Of a DNA stretch of 64,000 nt, positions 16,424-50,385 are shown in pieces. Source of the stretch: Calothrix sp. PCC 7103 (GTDB lineage: Bacteria > Cyanobacteriota > Cyanobacteriia > Cyanobacteriales > Nostocaceae); NCBI RefSeq assembly GCF_000331305.1, contig NZ_KB217483.1, forward strand, positions 415,534 through 479,533. The letters are read 5' to 3'. Position numbers and translations under genes: made by a program. The first letter of the stretch is position 1; each line of letters starts with the position of its first letter. The notes beneath the pieces were generated by a model that saw only the letters and a list, made by a program, of their open reading frames with translations, did no database searches and was not told where the DNA came from.

Positions 16424-16609
16424 ATGAGAACTAAAAAGTTCTTGTATCCATTGGAGCAACAATTGAAGTTTTGTCAGCTTGAAACTGAAGTAGAATTTCT
16501 GTTGCAACAGATGCAGCTTCTTAACCAAGAACTATCTTTATCCTCAAAAACAATGCTGCATCAGACACAAGTCGTCCATAGTAGTGAATCGAAAAACAAG
16601 ACTACCTAA
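16424..16609 (+). CDS. Small conserved protein heading the first half of the island (paralog of 30776)
   Basis: 61 residues from ATG 16424; upstream in-frame codons from 16370 are probably not translated. The core LYPLEQQLKFCQLETEVEF is nearly identical to LYPLEQQLKFCQLQTEVDL in the gene at 30776, and both are preceded by a similar TCTTTA(A)TGGAGCC leader. The rest diverges in a polar tail. Predicted to be helical, perhaps a coiled coil, with one conserved Cys. The duplicate stands just before the second half of the biosynthetic island, suggesting a linked regulatory or scaffold role. Function unknown. Confidence 0.6.
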   Translation: MRTKKFLYPLEQQLKFCQLETEVEFLLQQMQLLNQELSLSSKTMLHQTQVVHSSESKNKTT

Positions 16610-16693: not shown

Positions 16694-17764
16694 GTGTACA
16701 TCAATCAGCTTTCTAATAAAAAAACCATCTTACTCACTGGTGCATCAGGAGTAGTTGGTCAAGCTTTATTAGCACGACTTCATTCACATTCGGTTATTTG
16801 TTTGACATATAAAAAGCCGATCGCAAATCCAGGTGTTATTACCGTTCCTTGCGACATTTCATTACCTCAGCTAGGTCTAAGTAAAACACAGCTAAAAGAT
16901 ATAGCAAAGTGCATCGACTGCATTGTGCATTCAGCTGCAATAACTGATTTTGCTGAATCTGATGAATTAATTCACCGCACAAACGTGCGCGGCTTAGAAA
17001 ATATGCTGGAATTGGCAGCAATAGCGAAAGTTCCCTTTTACTACATTAGTACTGCTTTTATCCGTCCTCACAAACGTAAAGATAGCCCTTTAGAACATTC
17101 GTACACTATCTCAAAACGCGAAGGAGAGCGGCTTGTAAAAGAGAGTGGGCTAACCTCTGCAATTATTCGTCCCTCGATTGTGATTGGTGATTCTACATCA
17201 GGTCAAATTGCACGTTTTCAAGGCATTTATAACATTGTAGGCTCCTTGATTAGAGGGTTCTTGCCTATCCTGCCAATGTTGCCGCAAGCGTATATAGATT
17301 TTATTCCTCAAGACGTTGTTGCTAACACGGTAGCTGCACTTATTGAGCATGATTGTGTAGCAGGCGAATATTGGCTAACTGCTGGAACTAAAGCCATGAC
17401 AGTACGCCAGATTGCGGATTTGATAGTGGAATTTGGCGCTACTCGTGGGCTAAAAATTAACTTACCCCGAATGGTCAACCCTGACATCATAGATCGGTTG
17501 CTCCGTCCTGCTTTCATGTCAGAACTACCAAAATCCGTCAAAAAAGGTTTTGACTGGTTTACGCAAGTCTCGCCTTACTTGTGTAATGAGGAACCCTTCC
17601 CCACATCATTACCAGAGATAGAAACCCGCTTCGGTGTGCCATCGCTGCCAAATCAAGAAACTGCTTTGATGCATAGCCTCGAATACTGGGCTAATCAAAC
17701 TAGGGTTTGCTCTAGTGCAAAAGCTAAGAAAGACCGTACTCAACTTGCTAAATGCGAATGTTAA
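16694..17764 (+). CDS. Extended SDR, fatty acyl/thioester reductase-like
   Basis: About 356 residues; start at GTG 16694, with an alternative TTG at 16685. The Rossmann motif TGASGVVG (~15-22), HSAAITDF, YISTAF and the catalytic Y-x3-K in YTISKREGE match the extended SDR group that includes the NAD_binding_4 (male sterility, thioester reductase) enzymes. Such enzymes reduce acyl thioesters to aldehydes or alcohols with NADPH. There is no attached adenylation or carrier domain. With an FAAL, ACP and aminotransferase in the island, an acyl-ACP reductase step is a reasonable guess. It could also be a sugar or sterol-type dehydrogenase. It ends 6 bp before the NOS gene. Confidence 0.75.
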   Translation: MYINQLSNKKTILLTGASGVVGQALLARLHSHSVICLTYKKPIANPGVITVPCDISLPQLGLSKTQLKDIAKCIDCIVHSAAITDFAESDELIHRTNVRGLENMLELAAIAKVPFYYISTAFIRPHKRKDSPLEHSYTISKREGERLVKESGLTSAIIRPSIVIGDSTSGQIARFQGIYNIVGSLIRGFLPILPMLPQAYIDFIPQDVVANTVAALIEHDCVAGEYWLTAGTKAMTVRQIADLIVEFGATRGLKINLPRMVNPDIIDRLLRPAFMSELPKSVKKGFDWFTQVSPYLCNEEPFPTSLPEIETRFGVPSLPNQETALMHSLEYWANQTRVCSSAKAKKDRTQLAKCEC

Positions 17765-17770
17765 CACACC

Positions 17771-18940
17771 ATGTTAATCAACAAAATAGCCTTGCAACAC
17801 AATCCGAAAACCTATAAATCTATTTTATCTGATGTCAAAGCCTTAAGAATGTTGTTGCAAGAGGAACAGCTAGCCCAGGACTGCCTGAACCGATTGGCAC
17901 AAATCAAGAGTGAACTGGAGAAAACCGGAACCTATTGGCAGAATATTGATGAACTGGTTTATGGAACCAAATTAGCATGGCGTAACAGTACCCGGTGTGT
18001 TGGACGCAGTTATTGGAACACTTTAGAAGTTCGTGATCTTCGTAGTTTGAATCAAGCAGGAGAAATATTCGATGCCCTAGTTGAGCATCTAAGGTTATCC
18101 ACTAACGGTGGTCGTATAAAGCCCTTTATCACCGTCTTTGCACCGCAACAACCGGGTCAAGCAGGAATTCGCATTTGGAACGAACAACTCATTCGCTACG
18201 CAGGATATCGACAACCTGATGGTTCGGTTGTTGGCGATCCAAAATATGTGGAGTTTACAGAAATCGTGCGTCGAATGGGGTGGCAAGGGGGCGAAGGAAC
18301 TGCCTTTGATATCTTGCCAATTGTAATTCAGATGCCGAATCAGCGTCCCAAATTGTTCGAGTTGCCTTGTGATGCAGTGCTTGAAGTGCCAATCCAGCAC
18401 CCTGAATACTCTTGGTTTGCAAAACTTGGTTTAAAGTGGCACGCACTGCCTGCAATTTGCAACATGATGCTTGATGTTGGCGGTATTCAGTACACGGCTG
18501 CCCCTTTCAGCGGCTGGTATATGGTTACAGAAATTGCGGCTCGCAACTTTGCAGATGAACATCGGTATAACTTGCTGCCTACTATCGCGCGGCACATGGG
18601 TTTGGATACTCGCTATGACCATACCTTGTGGCGAGACCGCGCCTTAGTTGAATTGAATGTTGCAGTTCTTCACTCATTTCGATATGCTGGTGTGACAATG
18701 GTGGATCATCATAGCGAAACTCGCCGCTTCGTGCAGTTTGAGAAGAGTGAAGCGCTAGCAGGAAGATGTACATATGCCGACTGGGGGTGGATTGTGCCTC
18801 CCGTTTCTAGCTCGACGACACCTGTTTTTCACCACAGCTATGAAGATGTTGAGTTAAAACCCAACTTCTTTTATCAGCCTGATCCCTGGCGGGAGTTCGC
18901 AACTCACCAAAAGTCTGGCTGTCCTTTCTCTGGTCATTAA
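17771..18940 (+). CDS. nos: Nitric oxide synthase oxygenase domain protein (bacterial NOS)
   Basis: 389 residues covering the whole NOS oxygenase fold without a reductase domain. The haem-ligand Cys is C76 in WRNSTRCVGR; the arginine-binding Glu is E254 in WYMVTEI; the pterin-site segment WIVPPVSSSTTPVF begins near residue 340. Family enzymes oxidise L-arginine via N-hydroxyarginine to citrulline and NO, using electrons from a partner reductase, which is not visible here. The unusual C-terminus ends in a Cys-Pro motif (GCPFSGH, C384). In thaxtomin biosynthesis a bacterial NOS supplies NO for nitration, so a NOS inside a biosynthetic operon suggests NO or a related species is used in product assembly. 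Spacing of 6 bp upstream and 33 bp downstream supports an operon. Confidence 0.95.
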   Translation: MLINKIALQHNPKTYKSILSDVKALRMLLQEEQLAQDCLNRLAQIKSELEKTGTYWQNIDELVYGTKLAWRNSTRCVGRSYWNTLEVRDLRSLNQAGEIFDALVEHLRLSTNGGRIKPFITVFAPQQPGQAGIRIWNEQLIRYAGYRQPDGSVVGDPKYVEFTEIVRRMGWQGGEGTAFDILPIVIQMPNQRPKLFELPCDAVLEVPIQHPEYSWFAKLGLKWHALPAICNMMLDVGGIQYTAAPFSGWYMVTEIAARNFADEHRYNLLPTIARHMGLDTRYDHTLWRDRALVELNVAVLHSFRYAGVTMVDHHSETRRFVQFEKSEALAGRCTYADWGWIVPPVSSSTTPVFHHSYEDVELKPNFFYQPDPWREFATHQKSGCPFSGH

Positions 18941-18973
18941 GAAAAATTATTGAATAATTGGAGGAAATAAATA

Positions 18974-20041
18974 ATGAAAGCTTTAGTCACTGGTGCTACA
19001 GGCTTTGTAGGCTCTGCTATTGTTCGTCAACTCTTGGAAGATGGTCAGGAAGTTAAAGCACTGGTTAGAAAAGAATCAGATATCAAAAATCTAGAAAAAC
19101 TGGATATCGAAATCGCTTACGGGGACATTACCGATTATGAGTCGATAGAGCAAGCAATGCAGGGCTGTCATTCTGTTTATCATGGTGCTGCAATGGTAGC
19201 TTTTTGGGTTCCCCGTAAAGACCGCCATCTCTTTGATTTGGTTAACGTTCAAGGATCCAAGAATGTTTTTTCAGCTGCACTCAAGTTAAATATTGAGAAA
19301 GTAATTTACACTAGCACAATCTCTACAATCGGCAGTTATGGGAAAGACACTCCCACTACAGAGGAAAACAATTTTAACCTGTGGGATATGAGCATAGAGT
19401 ACGAGCAGTCAAAATACTCTGCGGAGTTTGAGGCTTATCGGTTTGCGGCGAAAGGATTGCCTATTGTTGTTGTTATGCCTTCTGCCCCTTTAGGAGCAAG
19501 AGATATCAAGCCAAATCCCACTGGTAAGCTCATCCTTGATTTCCTCTCTCGTCGGATACCTGGTTATATTGATGGTGGCGCCAATTTTATTGATGTCGAT
19601 GATGTTGCCTACGGTCACATTCTTGCAGCTAAAAAGGGAAAGGTGGGCGAGCGTTATATTTTAGGGCATGAAAACCTTTCTATTGTTGATTTATTTACAG
19701 CTTTAGAAGAAATTTCTGGAATTCCCGCTCCTAAGTTCAAACTACCTTATATAAGTGCTTTAAAGCTGGCTCAGGCTATGGAATTTATTTCCGACCACAT
19801 TACCAACCAACATCCTCTGTACACGGCGCCGATGGTCAAATTTTCTAGCCTCTACTATTTTATTAACACCAGTAAAGCGAATCAGGAGTTGGGGTTTGAG
19901 CCTCGTAGCAGTGTCAAACAGGCAGCAATTAAGGCAATCCAATGGTTTTTGGAGAATGACTATCTTAAAGTCAGTGACAAAAACAAATCTCTCATTCGCC
20001 AGCATCTTGAGGGTAAGGTCTTGACACCAGTCTTTGCCTAG
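18974..20041 (+). CDS. Extended SDR / NAD-dependent epimerase-dehydratase (DFR/HpnA-like)
   Basis: 355 residues with TGATGFVG (6-13), the NAD-binding acidic region, YTSTIST and the catalytic Y143-x3-K147 in YEQSK. Overall it resembles dihydroflavonol reductase and the hopanoid-linked HpnA-like group. These oxidise, reduce or epimerise hydroxyl/keto carbons with NAD(P). Start ATG 18974 follows a GGAGG ribosome-binding site. In the operon it could reduce a keto intermediate or oxidise an alcohol. Substrate cannot be deduced. Confidence 0.8.
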   Translation: MKALVTGATGFVGSAIVRQLLEDGQEVKALVRKESDIKNLEKLDIEIAYGDITDYESIEQAMQGCHSVYHGAAMVAFWVPRKDRHLFDLVNVQGSKNVFSAALKLNIEKVIYTSTISTIGSYGKDTPTTEENNFNLWDMSIEYEQSKYSAEFEAYRFAAKGLPIVVVMPSAPLGARDIKPNPTGKLILDFLSRRIPGYIDGGANFIDVDDVAYGHILAAKKGKVGERYILGHENLSIVDLFTALEEISGIPAPKFKLPYISALKLAQAMEFISDHITNQHPLYTAPMVKFSSLYYFINTSKANQELGFEPRSSVKQAAIKAIQWFLENDYLKVSDKNKSLIRQHLEGKVLTPVFA

Positions 20042-20060
20042 AAGCTTAAAAGCCCAAAGG

Positions 20061-20081
20061 TCGAGAGTAAAAAACTCTCGA
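20061..20081 (+). terminator. Intra-operon stem-loop
   Basis: A perfect 8-bp stem TCGAGAGT/ACTCTCGA closes a loop of five A residues, 20 bp after the SDR stop and 56 bp before the desaturase start. There is no T-tract, so it is better read as an mRNA-stabilising or attenuating hairpin than a full terminator. Confidence 0.45.
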
Positions 20082-20136
20082 TCTGTGGTCTGCAAAAATT
20101 CATCCTTCTTTAGCCCATTTATTTAATAAGACAGAC

Positions 20137-21027
20137 GTGGAAAGTAAATTAGTAAATCAGAGACTGCGCGAGATTGACCACTCTCTGATGCAGATACCAA
20201 ATGGTATCATTAGCAATCCAACCCTGTTACTTTTTTTCGCTATTATTAGCTGCTTTACGATTTCGATTATTGCCTATTTTTTTGGGTATTTGCCTCTAAA
20301 AGGTTCCGCAGTAATTAACTTAATATGTCTTTACGCTCTGTATACGTTTAATCATGAAGCTGTACATCGTTTAGTACATCCCAATCGCGCCATTAACAAC
20401 TGGATTGGACGCATTGCTGCGGCACTAGAGGGTACAACTTTTCCAATGTTTCGTATTCTACACCCGCAGCATCATGCATTTACAAATCACCCGAAACTAG
20501 ACCCTGACTACGTCATTGGTCAAAAGCCACGGTGGTTGTTGCCTCTTTGGATTTTAGTTCGTCTCACACATGATAACTCTTTTATGATGAGTCGGCGTTT
20601 GTGGTCGAACAAACGCTCGCAATTGATTGAACATTTAGTAACGGTAGGGTTGCAGTTATCGGTAGCAATCAGTGCTGCTTTGGTAGGCCATCTGCAAGAT
20701 GTTCTTTTCCTATGGGTTGTTCCATTGCTTATTGCTGGGGCATTGATCGAACTGACGGTTGCATGGGCTGTGCATTTCCCCCATGAATCGCAGCATCCTC
20801 TAGAGAACACACGTATATTTAAGGGACGACTTTTACAGATATTAATGCTGAATCAAAACTATCACTTGGTTCATCATCTTTGTCCCGGTATTCCTTGGTT
20901 TCGCTACGGCAAGGCGATCCCTCTAATAGAACAGGCATTGCTAGAGCATCAGGGTGATATAAACAAAGGTACAAATTATGGCACCGTATGCGAAATAGGA
21001 AGATCAGCGAATGAATCTATTACATAG
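20137..21027 (+). CDS. Membrane di-iron fatty acid desaturase/hydroxylase
   Basis: 296 residues starting at GTG 20137. Three histidine boxes bind a di-iron centre: HEAVH (73-77), HPQHH (109-113) and HLVHH (243-247), with an additional HFPHESQH. Hydrophobic segments lie at ~28-50, ~52-70 and ~170-215. The short length and the box pattern resemble beta-carotene hydroxylase (CrtR)-like and short acyl desaturase members. In this island it may desaturate or hydroxylate the carrier-bound or free acyl chain. Whether it makes a double bond, an alkyne or a hydroxyl cannot be told from sequence. Confidence 0.85.
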   Translation: MESKLVNQRLREIDHSLMQIPNGIISNPTLLLFFAIISCFTISIIAYFFGYLPLKGSAVINLICLYALYTFNHEAVHRLVHPNRAINNWIGRIAAALEGTTFPMFRILHPQHHAFTNHPKLDPDYVIGQKPRWLLPLWILVRLTHDNSFMMSRRLWSNKRSQLIEHLVTVGLQLSVAISAALVGHLQDVLFLWVVPLLIAGALIELTVAWAVHFPHESQHPLENTRIFKGRLLQILMLNQNYHLVHHLCPGIPWFRYGKAIPLIEQALLEHQGDINKGTNYGTVCEIGRSANESIT

Positions 21028-21039
21028 GATGAGTTTAAT

Positions 21040-22362
21040 ATGAAAGAGAACCAACAATTGCTTGAAAATATAGAAGAAATTGATCACAATCCACATAAAG
21101 CTGCCGAGTTTCGACATCTTGTGATCCAGCAGCACAAGTGCCATGTTAATAAATCACTTGCCAAGCTGGCTGATTTAATGGGTACTCATATTGAGGTTCG
21201 CTCTTCTGGTAACTACATTTTTGATGAACGTGGAGAGAAATATTTGGCTTGTGGTGGATATGGTGTATTTACCATTGGTCACTGCCATCCAACAGTTATT
21301 GAAGCTGTTAAATCTCAACTTGAGCGCCATCCATTATCTACTCGGGCGCTTTTAAATGCTGAACTAGCCCAAGCAGCAGAAACTCTGGCTTCAGTTACTC
21401 CCAAGGGTTTAGACTACGTATACTTTGCTAATTCTGGCGCCGAAGCAACGGAGGCAGGTCTCAAATTAGCACGTTTATCCGGTAAAACCAAGCTAGTGGC
21501 AATGGAAGGTGGTTACCACGGTAAGACATTCGGAGCGTTAAGTGTTACAAGCCGTGCAGCCTACCGTATGCCTTTTCAGCCTCTACTACCAGATGTCGAG
21601 TTTATTCCCTTTGCAGATTCAGAATCTCTAGAGAAGGTTCTTTTACAAAACGGTGATGAATGTTGTGTTATTTTAGAACCTGTTCAGGCAGAAGGCGGTG
21701 TCATCATTCCCTACGAGGGCTATTTGCGAGAGGTAGAAAGGCTCTGCCGTCATTACGGAGCATTTTTAATTCTTGATGAAATTCAAACGGGACTTGCACG
21801 GTTAGGAACTTGGTGGGGAGCAGACCGAGAACAAATCGTTCCTGATGTCCTCCTGGTAGGGAAAGCTTTGAGTGGAGGAGTCATACCCGTCAGTGCTGCT
21901 GTTGCTTCTAAATCAGCTTACTTTAAGCTCAATCGCGACCCCCTCCTACATACATCGACATTTGCAGGTAGTCCTCTGGCAACAGTAGCAGCACGAACTG
22001 CAATTAACGTAATCAAAAACGAAGGGATAGTATCGCGAGCCAAGGAACTGGGTGAAAAGTTAATTTTTCAGGTAAAGAAAATTATTGAAGAGATTTGTCC
22101 TCACCTAGTCCGTGAAGTTCGGGGGGTCGGACTCTTAATTGGCATTGAGTTTGAAGCTGAGTTTTTGGCTGGTGACTTTATGTTTGAACTCATGCATCGA
22201 AATGTGTTGGTTTCTTATTCGCTCAACGCTCACCGCGTTGTTAGGCTAACACCGCCAGCTACTCTTGATGAGTCAGATGTAAGTTGGCTCATTACTGCTA
22301 TCTCTCTAAGTGCGTTCGCACTTAGAGAGCGTAACCCATCTTTAAATATTGCTAATTTATAA
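21040..22362 (+). CDS. Class III PLP aminotransferase
   Basis: 440 residues of the acetylornithine/putrescine/GABA aminotransferase superfamily. Motifs: NSGAEATEAGLKLAR, GGYHGKTFGALSVT, the PLP-contact Asp in LILDEIQTG, and the Schiff-base Lys K275 in LVGKALSGG. It would transfer an amino group from glutamate, alanine or another donor to an aldehyde or keto group of the island's intermediate. It lies 12 bp after the desaturase. The last ~20 codons contain a perfect 13-bp hairpin (22302-22329), probably a small palindromic element that extended the C-terminus (FALRERNPSLNIANL). Confidence 0.9.
   Translation: MKENQQLLENIEEIDHNPHKAAEFRHLVIQQHKCHVNKSLAKLADLMGTHIEVRSSGNYIFDERGEKYLACGGYGVFTIGHCHPTVIEAVKSQLERHPLSTRALLNAELAQAAETLASVTPKGLDYVYFANSGAEATEAGLKLARLSGKTKLVAMEGGYHGKTFGALSVTSRAAYRMPFQPLLPDVEFIPFADSESLEKVLLQNGDECCVILEPVQAEGGVIIPYEGYLREVERLCRHYGAFLILDEIQTGLARLGTWWGADREQIVPDVLLVGKALSGGVIPVSAAVASKSAYFKLNRDPLLHTSTFAGSPLATVAARTAINVIKNEGIVSRAKELGEKLIFQVKKIIEEICPHLVREVRGVGLLIGIEFEAEFLAGDFMFELMHRNVLVSYSLNAHRVVRLTPPATLDESDVSWLITAISLSAFALRERNPSLNIANL
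22302..22329 (+). repeat. Perfect palindromic element inside the aminotransferase 3' end
   Basis: CTCTCTAAGTGCG and its exact complement CGCACTTAGAGAG are separated by TT. It sits in frame within the final codons of the aminotransferase. The GCGTTCGC centre resembles small dispersed palindromes of heterocystous cyanobacteria. Only this one copy was noticed in the window. Confidence 0.7.
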
Positions 22363-22376
22363 AGGAGATTTTGGAA

Positions 22377-22871
22377 ATGCAATACTTAGAAATTGTTGCA
22401 GAAGTTCCCCATCGCAATGCAAACGAAGTTTATTCAATTATGTGTGACTTCGAGTCTTACCCGAAAAATAGCAAAGCTGTACGTAGTGTCACAAGTCAAG
22501 TGCTACCTGATGGAAGGACTTTTTCTACCTGGGAAGTAGACTTTCGTGGTGGTGCTATGTGCTGGACAGAAGAAGACCTGTTTGATCCCTCCACTTACAA
22601 AATTAGTTTCAATCAAACTGAGGGGGATGTTGAACATTTTTGTGGTGAGTGGAAAGTTCAAAGCCAAGATGAGAGTTGTTTAATATCCTTTTTGGCTGAA
22701 TTTGACATGGGAATACCCTCTCTAAGTCAAATTCTCGATCCAATTGCCATACAAGCACTACAGGAAAATATCACAGCAATTATTAAGGGCTTGTTTGGCG
22801 AACAAGTAGAATTCTTGCCAATGCAAGTTACTTCATTAGAAACGGAAACTTCGGAGAAAACAGCAGTTTGA
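22377..22871 (+). CDS. START/SRPBCC-fold protein (COQ10/polyketide-cyclase-like)
   Basis: 164 residues from ATG 22377, preceded by AAAGGAG; the in-frame TTG at 22371 is less likely. The N-terminus (VEIVAEVPHR-like start, ANEVYSIMCDFESYP) and the alternating pattern through STWEVDFRGG to the C-terminal helix match the SRPBCC fold, which binds hydrophobic ligands and includes cyclases and COQ10. A second such protein is at 37757. In biosynthetic islands these often cyclise or chaperone greasy intermediates. Catalytic residues cannot be assigned. Confidence 0.75.
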   Translation: MQYLEIVAEVPHRNANEVYSIMCDFESYPKNSKAVRSVTSQVLPDGRTFSTWEVDFRGGAMCWTEEDLFDPSTYKISFNQTEGDVEHFCGEWKVQSQDESCLISFLAEFDMGIPSLSQILDPIAIQALQENITAIIKGLFGEQVEFLPMQVTSLETETSEKTAV

Positions 22872-22952
22872 TCAGCTAAAAAATTAGGAGTCAGCATTCC
22901 ATTTTTACACTTGTTCCCGGACTGAGTCTGGGAATTTAATCAATCTGCTAAA

Positions 22953-24152
22953 ATGCATTCCGTAAAAACTATAAAACAGGAAAATTTGGTGCTGAATATG
23001 AATTATTCCTATCAACTATACAATTCAATTTTTGATGTAAATTTAAACGATTGGAAACAGGTTTTTCAAGAAAGCACTTCTAATGCTTATATGGATACCA
23101 GGGTTTTCATAACAATTGAAAAAACAATGGCTGATTTTAGTAAATTTTGGTACATTATTTTTTATGATAATAATGGAAACCCCGCTGCTTGTACTAGTTT
23201 ATCTACGTTTGAAGTTGATTTAGGTATAGTAGCCAGTAAAAAGACTAAAGATTTAATCAATTATACTAGACATTTTTTCTCCTCTTTTTTATACTTGAAG
23301 GTTCTCTTTTGCGGCTTACCTATTTCTATTGGTAAAAATCATTTAATAATTACAAAAAAGGCTAATTATCAATTGATTTTAAAGTTGCTTGATGGTATTA
23401 TGAATACTATTGCTGCCAAAGAAAAAGCCAAACTGATCATTTACAAGGAGTTTAACTCTGTAGAGTGTAATAAGCTTGATGCTCTGTTACAGCTTGGTTA
23501 CCTACGGGCTAATAGTCTACCTATGCACAGCTTTAAAGCGAAATTTTCCAATTTCACCTCTTACTGTGCTGCTTTAAAGTCTCATTATCGTAATGATATT
23601 AACAGGTCAAGGCGAAAATTTGAAAAAGCAGGTCTTCGCGTTGAGCAGTTAAAGGATACAGAAAAGATTTTGCAGATATATACTTCAGAGATGCATCAGC
23701 TTTATGAAGCAGTTGTGCAAAAATCTGAGAATCAACTGGAGACTTTACCTGTAAATTTTTTCCGAGACTTAGTAATAAACTTTCCCAATCAAGTGCTTTT
23801 TACTTTAGTTTACAAAGATAATACAATAGTGGCATTTAACTGTTCTTTATGCACTCCATTAAATGTTCACTATTTATTTTGTGGATTAGATTATAGTTTA
23901 AACGCTGAGTCAGATATTTATTTTAATTTAATGTATGCCGCTTTAGATGAAGCACTAAAGCAGAATGTGGCTGAAATCCATTTTGGTCAAACGGCAGATA
24001 CATTTAAAGCTAGATTAGGCTCTTATCAAACACCCCTCTATTTATATATAAAAGGTAAGGGCTTTCTGCTAAATTGGTTTGTTCGCAAAAGTTTTAATAT
24101 GCTTTTCCCAAAGCCGCCTTTAGTTCCCTCATACAATATTTATAAGCAATAG
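22953..24152 (+). CDS. FemAB/GNAT-like acyl- or aminoacyltransferase
   Basis: 399 residues; the start may instead be ATG 22998. The C-terminal half (RNDINRSRRKFEKAGL, then YEAVVQKSENQLE, FRDLVINFP, LFCGLDY, IHFGQTAD) matches the pattern of the GNAT-like BioF2/FemAB group, which attaches acyl or aminoacyl groups to amines. The N-terminal half is a degenerate second GNAT-like domain. It lies 80 bp after the START-like gene and before the acyl-CoA dehydrogenase. The AT-rich codon use is stronger than its neighbours. It may acylate the island product; substrate unknown. Confidence 0.65.
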   Translation: MHSVKTIKQENLVLNMNYSYQLYNSIFDVNLNDWKQVFQESTSNAYMDTRVFITIEKTMADFSKFWYIIFYDNNGNPAACTSLSTFEVDLGIVASKKTKDLINYTRHFFSSFLYLKVLFCGLPISIGKNHLIITKKANYQLILKLLDGIMNTIAAKEKAKLIIYKEFNSVECNKLDALLQLGYLRANSLPMHSFKAKFSNFTSYCAALKSHYRNDINRSRRKFEKAGLRVEQLKDTEKILQIYTSEMHQLYEAVVQKSENQLETLPVNFFRDLVINFPNQVLFTLVYKDNTIVAFNCSLCTPLNVHYLFCGLDYSLNAESDIYFNLMYAALDEALKQNVAEIHFGQTADTFKARLGSYQTPLYLYIKGKGFLLNWFVRKSFNMLFPKPPLVPSYNIYKQ

Positions 24153-24201
24153 CCAATTTTGTTCAATCAACTTAATTCATAGTAAATAGGAGCTTTTCCA
24201 G

Positions 24202-25347
24202 GTGAATTTTCTCAAGCAAGAACGAACAACCCTAAAAGAGTTTTTTCCAGACTTAGATGAAAAACTGGCGCATATTCCTTTGTTGGAAATGGAAAAGCCA
24301 CAAAATCCAGCGATACAAATATTTCGTGAACTTGGTGGTCCTCGTTTATTAATCCCAACTAAATATGCTGGTTTGGGCGCCACTCCTATAGAAGCTGTTC
24401 GGGTTCAACGCGCAATTGCCAGCCGCGCGCCTTCATTGGCGATTGCCACTACGATGCATCATTTTTCAGTTGCAACTATCGTGGAGATGATCGCTCAGGG
24501 TTCGGGAACGGGTTTAGAGTGGATGTTACTTGAGGGGATTGCCAAACAAAACCTTTATGTGGCTTCAGGCTTTGCAGAGGGAAAGACAGGTTCAGGCATT
24601 CTCACTCCCCATATGCAAGTAAAACGAACAGAGGAAGGTAGTGTGACAGTTAGTGGAAGTAAAAAGCCTTGTAGCTTGGCTACATCAATGGATCTTCTTA
24701 CTGCCAGTGTGTCTATTCCTAATAAATCGGGAGATGGAAGCGAATTAGCAGTTATAATTATTCCAGCCAGTACTCCAGGAATTGAACGTCGCCCCTTCTG
24801 GACAAACTCAGTGCTTGCAGGCGCACAAAGCGATGAAGTTATTCTTCACGATGTTAAAGTTCCGGAACAACTTATCTCCTATACTGGTAATTCAGGAAAT
24901 TTAGATTATGTTCAAACTAGGGGCTTTCTTTGGTTTGAATTGCTAATTTCCGCATCTTACCTTGGTATTGCCAGTGCCTTAGTTGAGCGAACTATTGCAG
25001 CTAGCAAGAGTATTACACACTGCGAGCGGGCACTTTTGGGGATTGAAACCGAGGGAGCAATGGCTGCACTAGAAGGAGTAGCTCAGTCAATGGTGGTTAG
25101 TGATAACAACCAAGGTAACGATCAACTTGCACGTGTCCTGTTTGTACGTTATGCAGTTCAAGGCGCCATAGAACGGGTCACTTCTCGTGCAGTGGAGTTA
25201 TTGGGCGGTATGGCATTTATCAGTTCATCCGAAGTTGCTTACATGTTCGCTGCTACCCGCGCACTCGCATTTCACCCACCCTCACGGCTCAGTATCTCAC
25301 CTGCTTTGGATAAATACCTAGCGGGAGAAGCTTTGCTCATGCAGTAA
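24202..25347 (+). CDS. Acyl-CoA dehydrogenase family flavoprotein
   Basis: 381 residues starting at GTG 24202. The fold order is typical: helical N-domain (ELGGPRLLIPTKYAGLGA), central beta domain (ASGFAEGKTGSG, TVSGSKKPCSLATSMD) and C-terminal helices ending with AVELLGGMAFISS. These FAD enzymes introduce a 2,3-double bond into acyl thioesters or, in the related monooxygenase branch, hydroxylate at nitrogen or carbon. The usual catalytic Glu near the C-terminus is not obvious by eye. In this operon it may act on an ACP-bound acyl chain or as an N-oxygenase. Confidence 0.85.
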   Translation: MNFLKQERTTLKEFFPDLDEKLAHIPLLEMEKPQNPAIQIFRELGGPRLLIPTKYAGLGATPIEAVRVQRAIASRAPSLAIATTMHHFSVATIVEMIAQGSGTGLEWMLLEGIAKQNLYVASGFAEGKTGSGILTPHMQVKRTEEGSVTVSGSKKPCSLATSMDLLTASVSIPNKSGDGSELAVIIIPASTPGIERRPFWTNSVLAGAQSDEVILHDVKVPEQLISYTGNSGNLDYVQTRGFLWFELLISASYLGIASALVERTIAASKSITHCERALLGIETEGAMAALEGVAQSMVVSDNNQGNDQLARVLFVRYAVQGAIERVTSRAVELLGGMAFISSSEVAYMFAATRALAFHPPSRLSISPALDKYLAGEALLMQ

Positions 25348-25512
25348 GCTAACCCTCTTTTTGTCAGGCTCAGAGAAGTCGAATGAAGGTTGAAGTGTGA
25401 AGTATCAAGTTTAATTATAACCTTACACAACAAGGAAAGCAGAGCATCGGCTTCTTGGGCTTTAAACTAGTGCTTTTACCAATTTATTTAGAAGTAAAAA
25501 CAGGATTTTCTG

Positions 25513-26343
25513 ATGCAAAGAATCGCTCTGTTTAATATCGAATGCTATTCTTCAAGTGAAGCTATAATCCAATTTATTGAAGAACATTACGAAAAATTAG
25601 CAATTGTAGTCACAACTGATATGTACAGAGGCAAGCGTGGTAATGTTTTTAAGCAAGTTATTGTCAACTATCGTAGGTCTGGTTTAGGTTTCGTCATATA
25701 TCTAACTTACAACTTTATTTTATATTTTTGGTTGATTTATTTGTCTCGCTTAGTCTCATTTATTACCAGACGTGAACGAAAAAAATTTACCATATCTGAA
25801 ATTTGCCACAAATACCAAATTCGGCACATTAAAACACCAAATGTAAATAGTGAAGATGTTATAGCTGAGTTGAAAAAAGCTAATCTTGACTTAATCGTGA
25901 TATATTTTTTCGACCAAATTATTAAAGAGCAAATAATCAGTATACCGAAAAAAGGAGTTATTAACGTACACGCTGCTCTTTTGCCTAAATGTAAAGGATT
26001 GTTTCCAGTTTTCTATTCGGCGTTTAATAACGATAGAAAGTTTGGTATAACAGTTCATGAGATTGTAGACACTTCTATTGATTCAGGCGCCATATTCGTA
26101 CAAGATGAATTAGTAGTAGATCATAAACACAGTATTTTATCATTGGATAAACAAGTGAACAATAAAGGCGTAAGTTTAGTATCCAAGGTTATAAATAACT
26201 TTCACTTATATTATCAAAACAGAACTCCTCAAGGTTCTGGTGGCTCTTACTTTTCCTTTCCCAATATATCTGATATTAAAAATGCCCAAAGTCAAAGTTT
26301 TCGTCTTGTCTCTCTTCAAGAGTTCATGAAAGATTTTTTCTAG
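25513..26343 (+). CDS. Formyltransferase-fold protein with membrane-like insert
   Basis: 276 residues. The C-terminal half carries the formyl_trans_N signature: INVHAALLPKCKG (Asn and His of the catalytic triad), then GITVHEIVDTSIDSGAI with the catalytic Asp. Such enzymes move a formyl group from 10-formyl-tetrahydrofolate to an amine. Residues ~55-85 (around GFVIYLTYNFILYFWLIYL) are strongly hydrophobic, suggesting a membrane-associated insert. It lies 165 bp after the acyl-CoA dehydrogenase and 38 bp before the exporter. A formamide or a formyl intermediate in the product is a testable idea. Confidence 0.75.
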   Translation: MQRIALFNIECYSSSEAIIQFIEEHYEKLAIVVTTDMYRGKRGNVFKQVIVNYRRSGLGFVIYLTYNFILYFWLIYLSRLVSFITRRERKKFTISEICHKYQIRHIKTPNVNSEDVIAELKKANLDLIVIYFFDQIIKEQIISIPKKGVINVHAALLPKCKGLFPVFYSAFNNDRKFGITVHEIVDTSIDSGAIFVQDELVVDHKHSILSLDKQVNNKGVSLVSKVINNFHLYYQNRTPQGSGGSYFSFPNISDIKNAQSQSFRLVSLQEFMKDFF

Positions 26344-26381
26344 TAAACAAAGAGTGTTAATTGTTTAATAATAATAATAAT

Positions 26382-27797
26382 ATGCATGATTCGAGACTAA
26401 TGGGCAAGCCTGTTTTCAAATCTAAAAGGTGGTGGATAACAATATTTGTAACTGTTGCTGCCTCAGTTACAGCTACAGCTACTATTTACAGTCTCCTTCG
26501 TTCCCATCCTAGTCAGCAAAATCCCTCGTCAATTTCCTTGGCGACAACTGCTTCTGCCACCAATACCGTCAGTGCGAGAGGAAGAATAGAACCGCAAGGT
26601 GAAGTTATTCGCCTGTCTGCTTCTACCTCTGTTGAAACTGTTAAGATTGAAAAACTTTTAGTCAAAGAGGGAGATCGAGTCACATCCAATCAGGTAATTG
26701 CTATTTTAGACAACTATAATCGTCTTTTAGCTGCTTTAAAACAGGCTAAACAACAAGTTAAAGTTGCTGAAGCTAATCTAGCCAAGGTAAAGGCTGGAGC
26801 AAAAGTAGGACAAATCAGCGCTCAAAAAGCTGAGATTGCCCGTTTACAAGCTCAATTAAATGGAGAAAGGAAAACTCAACAAACAACCATTGCCCGTCTA
26901 CAAGCTCAATTAAATGGAGAAAGGAAGACTCAACAAGCAACCATTGCCCGTCTACAAGCTCAATTAAATGGAGAAAGGAAGACTCAACAAGCAACCAATG
27001 CCCGTCTACAAGCTCAACTCAACAATGCCCAAATAGAATTTGAACGCTATCAGATGCTGTATAAAGAAGGTGCTGTTGAAACCTCTAAATTTGATAGCAA
27101 ACGTTTGGAATTGGAAACTGCAAAAGAGCAGCTAAATGAAGCTAGAGCTAGCCTGAATCAAAGTAAGGAAACTTTACAACAGCAAATCAATGAGGCTAAA
27201 GCCACCCTTAAGCAAAGTGAGGAAACTTTACAACAGCAAATCAATGAGGCTAAAGCCACCCTTAAGCAAAGTGAGGAAACTTTACAACAGCAAATTAATC
27301 AGGCCTTTGCAACCTTAAATCAAATAGCTGAGGTTCGTCCCACTGATGTGCAAGCTGCTCAAGCAGAGGTAGAAAGTGCGATAGCTGCTGTAGAAAAAGT
27401 TCAAGCTGATCTTAACTTAGCTTATGTACGCGCGCCCAAAAACGGTCAGATTTTAAAAATTTACACTTTCCCTGGAGAAGTTGTTGGCAACGAGGGAATT
27501 GCGGACATGGGGCAAACAGACCATATGTATGTAGTTGCAGAAGTTTATGAAACAGATGTAAGTCAAGTACATATTGGTAAACAAGCTACCATTACTAGCG
27601 ATGCTTTCTCTGGAAAATTACAAGGAAAAGTGACTCAAGTTGGTTTACAAGTGCGGAGACAAGCGAGTTTTAGTACTGATCCTGTTGCGGATGTAGATCG
27701 TAGAGTGGTTGAGGTGAAAATTCGTCTAAATCCAGAGGACACAGAGAAAGTTACAACTTTAACCAACTTACAAGTAGAAGTATTAATTAATACATAA
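26382..27797 (+). CDS. devB: HlyD/DevB-like membrane fusion protein
   Basis: About 471 residues from ATG 26382 (a TTG at 26361 is also in frame). One N-terminal membrane anchor (~17-40), a lipoyl half-domain (RIEPQGEVIRLSAS), a long coiled-coil hairpin (~120-330), the second lipoyl half (YVRAPKNGQILKI) and a beta-barrel. The pair with DevC/DevA genes downstream defines a DevBCA-type exporter, known for heterocyst glycolipid export. Each arm of the coiled coil carries three 18-residue repeats, so the hairpin is unusually long. It probably exports the island product across the periplasm. Confidence 0.88.
   Translation: MHDSRLMGKPVFKSKRWWITIFVTVAASVTATATIYSLLRSHPSQQNPSSISLATTASATNTVSARGRIEPQGEVIRLSASTSVETVKIEKLLVKEGDRVTSNQVIAILDNYNRLLAALKQAKQQVKVAEANLAKVKAGAKVGQISAQKAEIARLQAQLNGERKTQQTTIARLQAQLNGERKTQQATIARLQAQLNGERKTQQATNARLQAQLNNAQIEFERYQMLYKEGAVETSKFDSKRLELETAKEQLNEARASLNQSKETLQQQINEAKATLKQSEETLQQQINEAKATLKQSEETLQQQINQAFATLNQIAEVRPTDVQAAQAEVESAIAAVEKVQADLNLAYVRAPKNGQILKIYTFPGEVVGNEGIADMGQTDHMYVVAEVYETDVSQVHIGKQATITSDAFSGKLQGKVTQVGLQVRRQASFSTDPVADVDRRVVEVKIRLNPEDTEKVTTLTNLQVEVLINT
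26838..26999 (+). repeat. 54-bp tandem repeat, ascending coiled-coil arm
   Basis: Three units of 54 bp, each encoding ARLQAQLNGERKTQQ plus three residues, followed by a partial fourth unit (ARLQAQLNNAQ). Units differ at only a few bases. 18 residues equal five alpha-helical turns, so the helical phase is kept. Confidence 0.9.
27150..27311 (+). repeat. 54-bp tandem repeat, descending coiled-coil arm
   Basis: Three 54-bp units encode variants of TLKQSEETLQQQINEAKA. The second and third units are almost identical at the DNA level. Unit length and number match the repeat of the opposite helix at 26838-26999. Confidence 0.9.
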
Positions 27798-27820
27798 TTT
27801 TTGAGAGAGTGTTAGTAATC

Positions 27821-28972
27821 ATGTCCAAAATACCTCTAGCTTGGTTACAACTTACCCGCGAAAAATCTCGTATGATTGTTGCGATGGCAGGCATTGCTTT
27901 TTCCAATATTCTCATGTTTATGCAGTTAGGATTTGAGGGTGCGCTATATGATAGCTCTGCACGCTTACACTCCACTTTAAAAGCGGACTTGATTATGATT
28001 AGTCCTCGCTCTAAATCTCTTGCTTATATGAGACAGTTTTCTTCTCGCCGTCTCTATCAAGCTTTAGGCGTTAATGGAGTAGATTCAGTTAGTCCTTTAT
28101 ATATTGACTTTGCTGACTGGAAAAATCCCATAAATGCAGATTATCGAGCAATATTTGTTTTTGGTTTTGAGCCAGAAAAACCAGTTTTTAACTTACCGGA
28201 AGTAAATCAAAATATAAACAAGCTCAAACTTCCTGATACTATCCTTTTTGACCGTTCTTCTCGCTCAGAGTATGGACCTATTGCTACTGAACTTGAGCAG
28301 AACAAAAAGGTAGTTACAGAACTAAGTAATTATCGGATAAAAACCGTTGGTTTATTCACTCTTGGTCCTTCCTTTGCTGCCGATGGTAATTTAATTACTA
28401 GCGACCAAAACTTTCTGCGTTTATTCAAAAATCGTCGAGATGGAGAAATCGATGCTGGATTAATTTCCCTTAAACCAGGCGTTGATAAACAAAAAGCCCT
28501 TGATAATTTATCTGTAAAACTACCTAAAGATGTAAAATTACTTACTTATGAGGGATTTATAGAATTTGAAAAAGAATATTGGCGTACAAGTACACCTATC
28601 GGCTTTATGTTCGCTCTTGGTACTGGGATGGGATTTGTTGTTGGTACAGTCATTGTATACCAAATTCTTTTCACAGATGTTAATGAACACTTGGCTGAAT
28701 ACGCGACTCTCAAGGCTATGGGGTTTACGGATAAATATTTACTAAGTGTTGTTTTTCAAGAAGCACTGATTCTAGCAGTTCTTGGCTACATTCCAGGATT
28801 GGGAATTTCTTTGGGTTTGTATGAATTAACCAAGGCTGCAACTTTTTTACCAATGGTCATGAGTGTTAGTCGCTCTTTATTAGTTTTCGTTTTAACAATT
28901 TTAATGTGTACGATTTCTGGTGCCATTGCTGTACGCAAGTTGGGAGCGCTAGACCCAGCAGATATTTTTTAA
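27821..28972 (+). CDS. devC: DevC-like ABC exporter permease
   Basis: 383 residues from ATG 27821. Layout of the MacB/DevC type: one N-terminal transmembrane helix (~16-38), a large periplasmic domain (~40-250), and three C-terminal helices (around FALGTGMGFVVGTVIVYQI, ALILAVLGYIPGLGISLGL and LLVFVLTILMCTISGAI). It ends with a conserved-looking ALDPADIF. It is encoded between the DevB-like adaptor and the DevA-like ATPase with 23- and 36-bp gaps. Works as a dimer with the ATPase in export of glycolipids or other lipophilic products. Confidence 0.92.
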   Translation: MSKIPLAWLQLTREKSRMIVAMAGIAFSNILMFMQLGFEGALYDSSARLHSTLKADLIMISPRSKSLAYMRQFSSRRLYQALGVNGVDSVSPLYIDFADWKNPINADYRAIFVFGFEPEKPVFNLPEVNQNINKLKLPDTILFDRSSRSEYGPIATELEQNKKVVTELSNYRIKTVGLFTLGPSFAADGNLITSDQNFLRLFKNRRDGEIDAGLISLKPGVDKQKALDNLSVKLPKDVKLLTYEGFIEFEKEYWRTSTPIGFMFALGTGMGFVVGTVIVYQILFTDVNEHLAEYATLKAMGFTDKYLLSVVFQEALILAVLGYIPGLGISLGLYELTKAATFLPMVMSVSRSLLVFVLTILMCTISGAIAVRKLGALDPADIF

Positions 28973-29008
28973 GCAAATTAAGCGTATTACTTCTACTTCA
29001 TTCAATCA

Positions 29009-29692
29009 ATGTTACAAAATCCCATTGTTACTATTCAAAATTTAAATCACTATTATGGTAGTGGCGCATTGCGTAAACAGACTTTATTCGACATCAATCT
29101 AGAAATTTATTCAGGTGAAGTCGTTATCTTGATGGGGCAGTCTGGATCGGGGAAAACTACTCTACTTACCCTGATAGGAGGTTTGAGATCTGTCCAAGAG
29201 GGGAATCTCAAAGTTTTGAAACATGAACTTTACAAAGCCAATAATAACGAATTAGTGAAAATCCGAAGAGATATTGGCTATATCTTCCAAGCTCACAATT
29301 TGTTACGATTTTTAACTGCTTGCCAGAATGTACAGATGTCACTTGAACTGCATCAGGAATTTCATAGCCAGCAAGCGGAAGCAAAAGCCAAAGCAATGCT
29401 AGAAGCTGTTAGCTTGGGGCATAGAGTAAATTACTACCCTGACGACCTCTCTGGTGGGCAGAAGCAAAGAGTTGCGGTCGCTCGTGCTTTGGTAAGTCAT
29501 CCTAAATTGATTTTAGCTGATGAACCTACTGCCGCTTTGGATAGTAAATCAGGTCGGGACGTAGTAGAACTTATGCAGCGTTTAGCCAAGGAACAGGGTT
29601 GTACCATCTTAATGGTTACTCACGACAATCGTATTCTTGATATTGCTAACCGCATCATTCATATGGAAGATGGACACATTGTGGATCATTAA
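29009..29692 (+). CDS. devA: DevA-like ABC transporter ATPase
   Basis: 227 residues. Walker A GQSGSGKTT, Q-loop FQAHNL, signature LSGGQKQR, Walker B LILADEPTAALD and switch His in VTHDN are intact. The MacB/LolD/DevA group is indicated by length and by gene order after a DevC-like permease. It powers the exporter. The gene ends the first half of the island; a gap of ~1 kb follows. Confidence 0.95.
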   Translation: MLQNPIVTIQNLNHYYGSGALRKQTLFDINLEIYSGEVVILMGQSGSGKTTLLTLIGGLRSVQEGNLKVLKHELYKANNNELVKIRRDIGYIFQAHNLLRFLTACQNVQMSLELHQEFHSQQAEAKAKAMLEAVSLGHRVNYYPDDLSGGQKQRVAVARALVSHPKLILADEPTAALDSKSGRDVVELMQRLAKEQGCTILMVTHDNRILDIANRIIHMEDGHIVDH

Positions 29693-30775: not shown

Positions 30776-31009
30776 ATGGATCCAACACGATTATTGTATC
30801 CATTAGAGCAACAATTAAAGTTTTGCCAGCTTCAAACTGAAGTAGATTTACTGTTGCAAGAGATGCTGGATATAAAACAGAATCTATGCTGCTCGAATGA
30901 GAATGTCAGTAGAACGCAAAATTTTTTAGATGTTCTGTCACATCGTCATTTTGGCAAAACACCTGGACACAAGAAAATAGCATACTATAGCACTACGCTT
31001 TTGGGTTAG
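30776..31009 (+). CDS. Small conserved protein heading the second half of the island (paralog of 16424)
   Basis: 77 residues. The N-terminal core LLYPLEQQLKFCQLQTEV matches the protein at 16424 almost exactly, with LLLQEM against LLQQM after it; the C-terminal halves differ (RTQNFLDVLSHRHFGK here). The leader TCTTTATGGAGCC also matches. Predicted short helical protein with one conserved Cys. It precedes the LuxE-containing operon by about 700 bp. The duplication at both island halves argues for a real function, perhaps regulatory, but none is known to me. Confidence 0.6.
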   Translation: MDPTRLLYPLEQQLKFCQLQTEVDLLLQEMLDIKQNLCCSNENVSRTQNFLDVLSHRHFGKTPGHKKIAYYSTTLLG

Positions 31010-31726: not shown

Positions 31727-32917
31727 ATGCGAAGTAATCTACACTTTGCCTTAAAAGAAGGCGGGTTAGACCCAGTTAAAGTAGCCTTGTCTTCTGTTAG
31801 TGAGTTGTATGCAATGCCTGAGTCAGAACTGCTTGCATTTAAGACAGACCTGATTAAGGATTCGTTTGCTTTCCACTACGATAACAATAGCTTTTTCAGG
31901 GCTTCTTGCGATGAGAAAGGAATTGCACCCGATGCCATTAAATCGCCCGACGATCTGATAAATATCCCTCTGATTCCTATCAGCTTTTTCAAGTCTGCTG
32001 ATAGTCACAAATTATTGTCAGTTAGCCTGAAAGCGATTGAACTGGAGATGCGTAGCACTGGTACTTCTGGTATTCCAAGTGTCGCGCGTCGTTGCTCAAA
32101 CACAGTAGATTACGGGATTTTAGGCATCTATGCCATGTATCGCGAATTCTTCAAGATTTCCAAGGGAGCTGGATTGTATTTATGCCCTTCTACAGAAGAC
32201 ATCCCAGAAATGGGTATGATTAAAGCTCTTAATATGCTTGCAGGTTTACTAGATACTCATCGCTTTATGGTTAAGAATGACCGCTTTGTACCAGAGGATG
32301 CCTTAACCCTGTTAGATGAATGGGCTAATAAATTTGACCGTCACATCATTGGTCCACCTTTTATCATTCATCGTTTTATCAGCTTTCTCAAAGCAACTAA
32401 TCAAAAAATTAAGCTCGGTAAAAATAGCTACATAATAACACTTGGAGGATGGAAACGTTTTAGTGGTCAAATGATTTCCAGAGTAGATTTTGATAACGAA
32501 TGTATAGAGTATCTCGGTGTTGAGAAGAGTCAGATACGAGATATGTATGCACTTGTGGAATCAAATGTTGTAGCAATTGATGATGAGTATGGAGTAAAAC
32601 ATGTTTCTCCATTTATTCATTTCTCGGTACGAAACCCCAAGCAATTAAATCAGGAAGTTGCTATTGGTGAAACAGGACAATTAGCAATCTTAGACCCTTT
32701 GTCTATCTCTACTCCAGGATTTATACTAACTGAGGACTTGGTTAGGCTTGTTCGCAAAGAAAATGACTTTGGTCGAAGTGGTCAACGATTACAATATATA
32801 ATGCGCTTGCCTGAATCGAGTGAATTTGGATGCTGTGCTGTAAATCTTGATAAACGCTTGGATGACCTGGAAGGTAAAAAAGTTAATTCCGATGGTGCAT
32901 GTCCTATAGTCTCTTAA
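31727..32917 (+). CDS. LuxE-type acyl-protein synthetase
   Basis: 396 residues matching the LuxE family (PF04443), relatives of phenylacetate-CoA ligase. Visible features: LINIPLIPISFFKS, the nucleotide-binding STGTSGIPS (from residue 110), LGGWKRFSGQ and DMYALVESN. LuxE activates a fatty acid as acyl-AMP and holds it on a Cys for reduction. The luciferase partners LuxA/B/C are absent, so this copy is a biosynthetic acyl activator. With the FAAL downstream the island has two acid-activating enzymes, suggesting a product with two acyl-derived parts. Confidence 0.88.
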   Translation: MRSNLHFALKEGGLDPVKVALSSVSELYAMPESELLAFKTDLIKDSFAFHYDNNSFFRASCDEKGIAPDAIKSPDDLINIPLIPISFFKSADSHKLLSVSLKAIELEMRSTGTSGIPSVARRCSNTVDYGILGIYAMYREFFKISKGAGLYLCPSTEDIPEMGMIKALNMLAGLLDTHRFMVKNDRFVPEDALTLLDEWANKFDRHIIGPPFIIHRFISFLKATNQKIKLGKNSYIITLGGWKRFSGQMISRVDFDNECIEYLGVEKSQIRDMYALVESNVVAIDDEYGVKHVSPFIHFSVRNPKQLNQEVAIGETGQLAILDPLSISTPGFILTEDLVRLVRKENDFGRSGQRLQYIMRLPESSEFGCCAVNLDKRLDDLEGKKVNSDGACPIVS

Positions 32918-33029
32918 AGTAGAAAGGGGTCATCTACTTCTATTTAGGAACTAAGTAAAACAACTTGATAAGTAAGTAGTTACGCAACTTATCAAAGATA
33001 ACAACATCATTCCTTACAAAGTGTTAAGT

Positions 33030-33395
33030 ATGTACAATGACATCATTATTACGAATTTTTCAGAGCCAGAACATAGTGGCGAAATAGAAAATCCGCATCT
33101 CGAATTTGAAGTAGGTAATTCTGTTTGTGGAGACAGAATTAAAATTCAGATTGAAATGGATGGGAGAAAAATTGTAAGGGGAGTATTTCGGGCTTGGGGC
33201 TGTGCTACTTCTGTTGCTACTGCCAATATTTTCTGTTCTTTGATTAACGGCAATGTAATTGAAACTGTAGTAAATTGTGACAAAAGTGAATTTGATAAAA
33301 TGCTTGGAGAGTTAGAACCTTCGCAGCATCATTGCCTTGATATCCTGCACGAACTTCACAATAAGCTAAAAATAAATTTTGTCAAAGAAGATTGA
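33030..33395 (+). CDS. IscU/NifU-N-like scaffold protein
   Basis: 121 residues from ATG 33030. It keeps all three scaffold cysteines: C33 in SVCGD (with the conserved Asp), C58 in GCATSVATA and C102 in HHCLDIL. The canonical role is to assemble iron-sulfur clusters with sulfur from a cysteine desulfurase, and such a gene follows after 4 bp. The N-terminus (YNDIIITNFSEPEHSG) fits the family. It lacks the NifU C-terminal domains. Sitting between LuxE and FAAL genes, it probably serves an island enzyme or delivers sulfur to the product rather than general metabolism. Confidence 0.88.
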   Translation: MYNDIIITNFSEPEHSGEIENPHLEFEVGNSVCGDRIKIQIEMDGRKIVRGVFRAWGCATSVATANIFCSLINGNVIETVVNCDKSEFDKMLGELEPSQHHCLDILHELHNKLKINFVKED

Positions 33396-33399
33396 TACG

Positions 33400-36287: not shown

Positions 36288-36300
36288 TAAAGAGGAAAAA

Positions 36301-37697: not shown

Positions 37698-37756
37698 GTT
37701 AGAGAATTTGTCTCGGCTAGAGGTAAGATATTCTATTTTTTTGGCAAAACTTGAAA

Positions 37757-42925: not shown

Positions 42926-42930
42926 CAAGT

Positions 42931-50378: not shown

Positions 50379-50385
50379 TCCTCAA

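Follow-up and report, generated by a model that had tools for sequence, protein, structure and literature searches.

The window analysed here is a stretch of 64,000 nucleotides from the cyanobacterium Calothrix sp. PCC 7103 (contig NZ_KB217483.1, positions 415,534 to 479,533), which sits within a contig of 1.56 Mb. It carries a gene for a nitric oxide synthase oxygenase (NOS) inside a run of twelve genes, all on the forward strand, that we call module A (16694-29692) and that is adjoined by a second operon, module B (31727-44049). Module A consists of a biosynthetic run with a DevBCA-type exporter at its end, and the gaps between its genes, from the reductase gene to devA, range from 6 to 165 bp. 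It is a real and conserved NOS-bearing biosynthetic operon of the Nostocaceae, and the families of its enzymes suggest that its product is probably an exported fatty amine. We assigned protein families by scanning 20 proteins of both modules against Pfam and NCBIfam, three exporter open reading frames (ORFs) lying outside the scan.

The first gene of module A (16694-17764) encodes a thioester-reductase-like short-chain dehydrogenase/reductase (SDR), which matches NAD_binding_4 (E 3.6e-36) and, below the cut-off, TIGR01746 (E 4.3e-29), and which is predicted to turn an acyl thioester into an aldehyde. We place its start at the GTG of position 16694, because the orthologues align from residue 4 of a longer ORF that begins with TTG. 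The NOS gene (17771-18940) follows at a measured distance of 6 bp, exactly where an earlier, sequence-only reading of this DNA had placed it. Then come an HpnA/3beta-HSD-like protein, referred to as the second SDR (18974-20041; TIGR03466, 366.2 bits, just under the cut-off of 367.65), and a CrtR-like membrane di-iron hydroxylase or desaturase (20137-21027; PF00487, E 6.9e-33; NF045688, 162.1 bits, below the cut-off of 475), whose histidine clusters are invariant across six orthologues. The class-III aminotransferase (21040-22362; PF00202, E 2.8e-86) resembles putrescine aminotransferases, which are its closest solved relatives (from E 3.6e-93), and it also matches PigE. It is followed by a START/SRPBCC protein of the Polyketide_cyc family (22371-22871; PF03364, E 2.5e-16), by a FemAB/GNAT-like protein (22953-24152; PF13480, E 4.3e-13; PF04339, E 9.9e-13) for which a search of the PDB at E 1 returned no relative, by a flavoprotein of the acyl-CoA dehydrogenase (ACAD) superfamily, either a dehydrogenase or a DszC-type monooxygenase (24202-25347; PF02770, E 1.1e-7, just under the gathering score), and by a formyltransferase (25513-26343; PF00551, E 2.6e-20), in which an NVH stretch aligns with the methionyl-tRNA formyltransferase 4iqf. 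The exporter is made of an HlyD-type membrane fusion protein (26361-27797; PF13437, E 4.2e-7), a DevC permease (27809-28972; TIGR01185, 554.6 bits) and a DevA ATPase (29009-29692; TIGR02982, 380 bits), the last two above their cut-offs. The gene order given in the sequence-only reading stands as far as it went, which was from the reductase through NOS, desaturase, aminotransferase, START-like protein and ACAD to the formyltransferase; it had missed the second SDR, between the NOS and di-iron genes, and the FemAB/GNAT-like gene, between the START and ACAD-like ones. Around these genes, no RNA family reached its gathering score over 15000-45000, none of the five proteins submitted to anti-phage models matched, and neither promoter-like sites (41, against 43.4 in shuffles) nor terminator-like ones (15, against 12.1) were in clear excess.

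The NOS is a protein of 389 amino acids devoid of a reductase domain, and it gives the only match to NOS in its genome. It covers positions 19 to 361 of the 362 of the PF02898 profile (E 7.2e-160), and its residues C76, E254 and W340 do not vary among the six cluster orthologues that are intact (6/6), the stretches around them aligning with those of solved mammalian NOSs, including eNOS. We take C76 to be the haem ligand, E254 the arginine-binding residue and W340 the residue that stacks on the pterin. The claim of a complete NOS oxygenase is thus borne out by the near-full coverage of the profile and by the conservation of these three residues, and the active site is, as far as the alignments can tell, intact. 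In a survey of the class, 19 of the 388 genomes, that of the window included, matched NOS with an E of 0.001 or lower, and 18 passed the cut-off. The open frame of the best match was longer than 1000 amino acids in nine of these 19 genomes, between 387 and 490 in seven (among them G342, which matches in pieces, one of them with internal stops) and a fragment in three.

The FemAB/GNAT-like protein was used as the marker with which carriers of module A were sought among 217 genomes of the family. Some match was found in 167 of them, and an identity of at least 76% in seven (the window's own genome, G420, G422, G446, G502, G506 and G535), the next best match having an E of 4.3e-19. The reductase, when taken as query, was found at E 1e-60 in a single one of the 388 genomes of the class, its own, in a sample that does not contain the six other carriers. 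Comparison of 23 window proteins with the carrier loci by tblastn revealed a block that recurs in 7/217 genomes, own included, with a constant order for the genes that are present. The full set of twelve, from the reductase to DevA, lies in the same order in the window, in Nostoc sp. C052 (G502) and in G420, G422 and G446, where uncut matches to the module A proteins show about 72-88% identity. In strain C052 the block is borne by the plasmid pC052_E, which is typed as conjugative. G535 gives no match to the formyltransferase, and its contig stops within or just after DevC; G506 is devoid of the second SDR and of the di-iron gene. A glycosyltransferase-like ORF lies between the ACAD-like and formyltransferase genes in C052, G422, G420 and G446, and after the ACAD-like gene in G535; it was assigned by PF00201 for the C052 copy and from the translations for the others, and it is absent from the window block and not listed in G506. 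The NOS gene, or its remnant in G506, stands behind the reductase gene in 7/7 loci, and it is intact in six of them.

G506 is the only carrier in which NOS is broken. The NOS frame departs from that of the orthologues near residue 112 and runs for 131 codons in all (L059, 12048-12487), and the aminotransferase gene starts 44 bp past the truncated NOS; tblastn found neither the second SDR nor the di-iron protein there, and the reductase, the aminotransferase and the later genes are kept. On visual inspection, the sequence immediately ahead of the NOS stop codon looks like the 3' end of the di-iron gene, read in a different frame. This arrangement indicates a natural deletion that took away most of NOS.

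Synonymous and non-synonymous divergence was estimated for NOS, both SDRs, the di-iron protein, the aminotransferase, the FemAB/GNAT-like and the ACAD-like proteins, the START protein, formyltransferase and exporter being left out. Between the window and five other strains, dN/dS of NOS is 0.073-0.086, with a dS of 1.2-1.3 that is near saturation. The ratio is 0.059-0.079 for the second SDR, 0.127-0.140 for the reductase, 0.110-0.165 for the di-iron protein, 0.104-0.118 for the aminotransferase, 0.085-0.104 for the FemAB/GNAT-like protein and 0.118-0.130 for the ACAD-like one; among the other strains the means range from 0.05 to 0.21, the FemAB/GNAT-like protein being highest, and dS is high throughout (0.6-1.6). 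Such ratios are those of genes under purifying selection. Since the block recurs in 7/217 genomes in the same order and its genes bear this signature, it is more than a chance assembly, and the proposal that NOS is embedded in a biosynthetic operon holds: the block seems to deal with an amine as well as an acyl chain, and NOS is no accidental neighbour in it.

The cluster NOSs are also set apart by descent. In a tree of 36 rows, the six of them form one clade (100/100), apart from the multidomain and the other stand-alone cyanobacterial NOSs; they share the NOS oxygenase domain with the SyNOS-type and other stand-alone enzymes, whereas they are oxygenase-only and have a clade of their own. A survey of cyanobacterial NOSs mentions Nostocales with oxygenase-only or globin-bearing enzymes, and the term "gene cluster" does not occur in it (PMC6104048). 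Six stand-alone cyanobacterial NOS loci (L079-L083 and L085, 8-19 kb each, with a contig end near NOS in L080 and L083) yielded no cluster gene besides NOS; in L081 and L083, an ORF of 502 amino acids, transporter-like by its translation, adjoins it. Three other candidates were discarded: a NOS fragment that borders the contig end in G366 (75% identity across 56 residues), on a 5.5 kb contig with no other cluster gene; a fragment in G212, where a nearby ORF is 37% identical to the fatty acyl-AMP ligase (FAAL) of module B, which is not the same cluster; and the NOS of a Ktedonobacteraceae metagenome-assembled genome (65% identity), on a 12.7 kb contig that again has no other cluster gene. A stand-alone NOS about 55% identical is also found on a haloarchaeal plasmid (Natribaculum luteum; L087, 5893-7011), beside a cation-transporting P-type ATPase.

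The sequence-only reading had called the ACAD-superfamily flavoprotein an acyl-CoA dehydrogenase, and this label is uncertain. Among NCBIfam models, the acyl-CoA dehydrogenase FadE16 leads (62.3 bits) over DszC (49.9 bits), all of them far below their cut-offs, whereas DszC leads among solved structures: it fills rows one to three of a profile search of the PDB (E 1e-10 to 1.8e-10), in which chains named ACAD come at 0.0057 and 0.0076. In a single-sequence search of the PDB, rows one to five are monooxygenases, the first ACAD-named chain has an E of 5.5e-6, and the nitrososynthase DnmZ reaches an E of only 0.19. The evidence thus points both ways, and the protein could carry out either chain dehydrogenation or the N-hydroxylation of an amine. 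AlnG, described as a putative acyl-CoA dehydrogenase, has been discussed as an N-hydroxylase (PMC7347517).

Taking these elements together, we hold with moderate confidence that module A is a secondary-metabolite operon that uses the nitric oxide (NO) made by NOS as a nitrogen reagent, and not as a signal, on a long-chain amine made by the reductase and the aminotransferase. NOS would convert arginine to NO; the reductase-like SDR would turn an acyl thioester into an aldehyde, from which the aminotransferase would make the amine; and the latter would be modified by the di-iron protein, the second SDR, the flavoprotein and the formyltransferase, along with the UDP-glycosyltransferase-like protein in five relatives. 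NO, probably oxidised to N2O3, would then nitrosate this amine, or an N-hydroxylated form of it, and the product would leave the cell through the DevBCA-type pump. All the reactions of this scheme are inferred, as are the length of the chain and the formation of an N-N or N-O bond. NO may be a building block because NOS lies inside a conserved gene set of fatty-amine type, and incorporation of its nitrogen into the product is plausible. Biosynthesis of 8-azaguanine offers a precedent for NO as a building block of N-N bonds, through nitrosation by NO or N2O3 with no dedicated enzyme proven, and lajollamycin one for an NO-derived building block (PMC7109123; PMC10831120). A more specific version, in which NO is joined to an enzymatically made long-chain hydroxylamine to give a diazeniumdiolate (N-nitroso-N-hydroxylamine) lipid that binds metals and is exported, or else a related N-N product, with the ACAD/DszC-like flavoprotein as N-hydroxylase, is a speculative proposal that we regard as quite unlikely.

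Several observations weigh against the main reading. Co-transcription of the operon is assumed from gene spacing; NOS has no reductase partner within the operon; and no N-N bond-making enzyme was recognised there. The flavoprotein could turn out to be a plain dehydrogenase, and the structure predictions for it and for the FemAB/GNAT-like protein were of low confidence (mean pLDDT of 46.9 and 36.4) and were not used. Module A also has no acyl-activating enzyme or carrier protein: a FAAL and an acyl carrier protein (ACP) are found only in module B, and the acyl donor is unproven because module B accompanies module A in only 2/7 genomes and no search was made for other FAALs in the carriers. Moreover, one of the two genomes with both modules is G506, in which NOS is broken.

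Other fates of NO can be considered. NO or NO2 could be added onto a double bond of the chain to give a nitroalkene lipid, the unsaturation being provided by the ACAD-like or the di-iron protein. In lajollamycin, NOS-derived NO does end up as an olefinic nitro group (PMC10831120). The operon may also supply a desaturase, and an acyl-CoA dehydrogenase is the top NCBIfam model for its ACAD-superfamily protein; however, the nitration of lajollamycin needs a cytochrome P450, none of the 20 proteins scanned matched a P450 family (a search that did not extend to the rest of the genome), and the presence of an amine-forming enzyme would favour chemistry at nitrogen, so that we think C-nitration unlikely. 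We prefer N-nitrosation to it because of the 8-azaguanine precedent and of the possible N-hydroxylation of the amine, lajollamycin C-nitration being the work of a P450. NOS could also act as an N-hydroxylase of arginine, passing citrulline or N-hydroxyarginine on to a later enzyme and releasing little free NO. N-hydroxyarginine is the intermediate of the NOS reaction (PMC7109123), and the di-iron protein weakly resembles the model of the guanitoxin arginine hydroxylase GntB (58.8 bits, cut-off 380); but it scores far higher against CrtR, and no arginine-handling ligase or amidinotransferase family is found among the proteins scanned, which leaves this possibility very improbable.

NO could instead be a signal or a protectant, acting on regulation, redox or metal stress and entering no metabolite. 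Such roles are reported for other bacterial NOSs, alongside the biosynthesis of nitrated compounds, in the cyanobacterial survey (PMC6104048), and 4/7 loci (window, C052, G446 and G420) have genes of heavy-metal, DUF305 or multicopper-oxidase type close to the block. Against this stand the position of NOS, or of its remnant, behind the reductase gene in every carrier, with a gap of 6 bp in the window, and the separate clade of the intact enzymes; we consider a signalling or protective role rather unlikely. The genes in question are of P-type ATPase, ArsR-type regulator, CusB-like, RND, DUF305 and multicopper oxidase types (window 46967-63999; L054, L078, L064 and L058). None is shown for G422, and the contigs that carry the blocks of G506 (39.9 kb) and G535 (13.4 kb) are short. 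Their proximity may reflect hitchhiking on the same mobile regions; if the diazeniumdiolate lipid were true, this setting in four loci would reflect metal chelation.

Some known systems share parts of this logic. Thaxtomin and rufomycin clusters are actinobacterial, are built on polyketide synthase (PKS) or nonribosomal peptide synthetase (NRPS) scaffolds, and pair NOS with a nitrating P450. No P450, PKS or NRPS family was recognised among the proteins scanned in module A. Like module A, these two clusters and that of lajollamycin have a NOS gene among natural-product genes, and the last of them differs by being actinobacterial, with a PKS or NRPS scaffold and a nitrating P450 (PMC10831120); the main text of that NOS-mining study contains neither "cyanobacter" nor "Nostoc". 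The ptn operon for 8-azaguanine in Streptomyces likewise has a stand-alone bacterial NOS, PtnF, whose NO goes into N-N bonds according to the account of this operon (PMC7109123), but it is built on a purine scaffold with a GCH-I-like enzyme, whereas module A is cyanobacterial and apparently handles an acyl chain and an amine. In tambjamine biosynthesis, as its abstract describes it, PtTamH, with thioester reductase and transaminase activities, works with PtTamA to convert fatty acids to amines, adenylation and ACP domains providing the supply (PMC9594044). Candidates for the thioester reductase (TIGR01746 below cut-off) and for the pyridoxal-phosphate-dependent transaminase both appear in module A; there they are separate proteins, FAAL and ACP are confined to module B, and no NOS is mentioned in that abstract.

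The sequence-only reading had also suggested that the nocuolin A class would fit. The noc cluster does resemble the two modules in using FAAL and ACP on fatty acids, in occurring in Nostocales and in leading to a product with an N-N-O unit. However, its description includes a ketosynthase, NocG, and a fused FAAL-ACP, NocH (PMC11837247, in its account of the cluster), together with NocN and NocO, which appear as dimetal halogenase queries in the pertinent part of PMC8406957. None of the 20 proteins scanned is a ketosynthase, and the FAAL (34578-36287) and the ACP (36301-36603) are encoded by distinct ORFs. Identity with the nocuolin cluster is rejected on gene content, and the suggested fit is not supported, the comparison being with the published description of noc. 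As to NocN and NocO, the scanned proteins were placed in other families, by family assignment and not by direct sequence comparison. We did not find the cluster described in the full-text literature searched, from which subscription journals are mostly absent, so that we do not claim its absence from print.

Module B, also on the forward strand, begins with a LuxE-type acyl-protein synthetase (31727-32917; PF04443, E 2.4e-36), followed by a NifU/IscU-like protein (33021-33395; PF01592, E 1e-18), a NifS/IscS-like cysteine desulfurase (33379-34578; PF00266, E 4.4e-70), the FAAL (PF00501, E 1e-62, the FAAL models being below their cut-offs) and the ACP (PF00550, E 3.2e-11). The association of LuxE with NifU- and NifS-like proteins, FAAL and ACP (31727-36603) is an odd pairing, which might serve the transfer of sulfur to an activated acyl group. 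Downstream are a flavin monooxygenase-like protein (36603-37697; PF13738, E 4.7e-27; first in the PDB, the flavin monooxygenases 4c5o and 4a9w), a second START/SRPBCC protein (37751-38281; PF03364, E 7.7e-15) and an exporter (38346-44049) made of an HlyD protein assigned by Pfam and of a double ABC ATPase and two permeases named from their translations. The LuxE query found module B at E 1e-80 in 4/217 genomes (the window's own, G442, G474 and G506). Five genomes have module A without module B, two have B without A, and two have both, adjacent in each case: the modules run in tandem in the window and diverge in G506. By the hypergeometric distribution, sharing two or more genomes has a chance of 0.005, although related strains are not independent. 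In G442, which lacks the module A marker, the copy of module B (L124, 2589-17004) is 93-99% identical to that of the window, and two unrelated ORFs interrupt its NifS-like gene.

Both modules are preceded on the same strand by a small ORF, of 61 codons ahead of module A (16424-16606), where a relative lies upstream in 7/7 loci, and of 77 codons ahead of module B (30776-31009); the two are paralogues (55% identity over 44 residues). A query of 41 residues matched 43/217 genomes at E 0.001 or better, with 49 places listed. The 13 places at E below 1e-7 comprise seven before module A, two before module B (window and G442), three before FAAL-containing PKS/NRPS genes (G485, G491 and G518, the G518 copy having an internal stop) and one, in G460, before a thioesterase-like ORF that is not assigned to a cluster. 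The PKS, NRPS and thioesterase names in these four genomes come from translations and similarity to FAAL. Ahead of module B the small ORF was not found in G506, and the matches listed do not include G474. We inspected 18 of the 36 weaker places: one, in G418, with internal stops, precedes an ORF that is FAAL-like by its translation, and the others have no such link within 1.5 kb. The family may represent a leader or a small regulator of natural-product operons.

The published NOS-bearing natural-product clusters that we found are actinobacterial, and module A is cyanobacterial, with no recognised P450. The incorporation of NO is directly testable, and G506, which has lost NOS and kept much of the operon, is a ready natural comparison. 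A Nostocaceae cluster built around an amine, without a recognised P450 and carried by a conjugative plasmid in one strain, would widen the known uses of NO and would offer a concrete place to seek N-N or nitro lipids in cyanobacteria.

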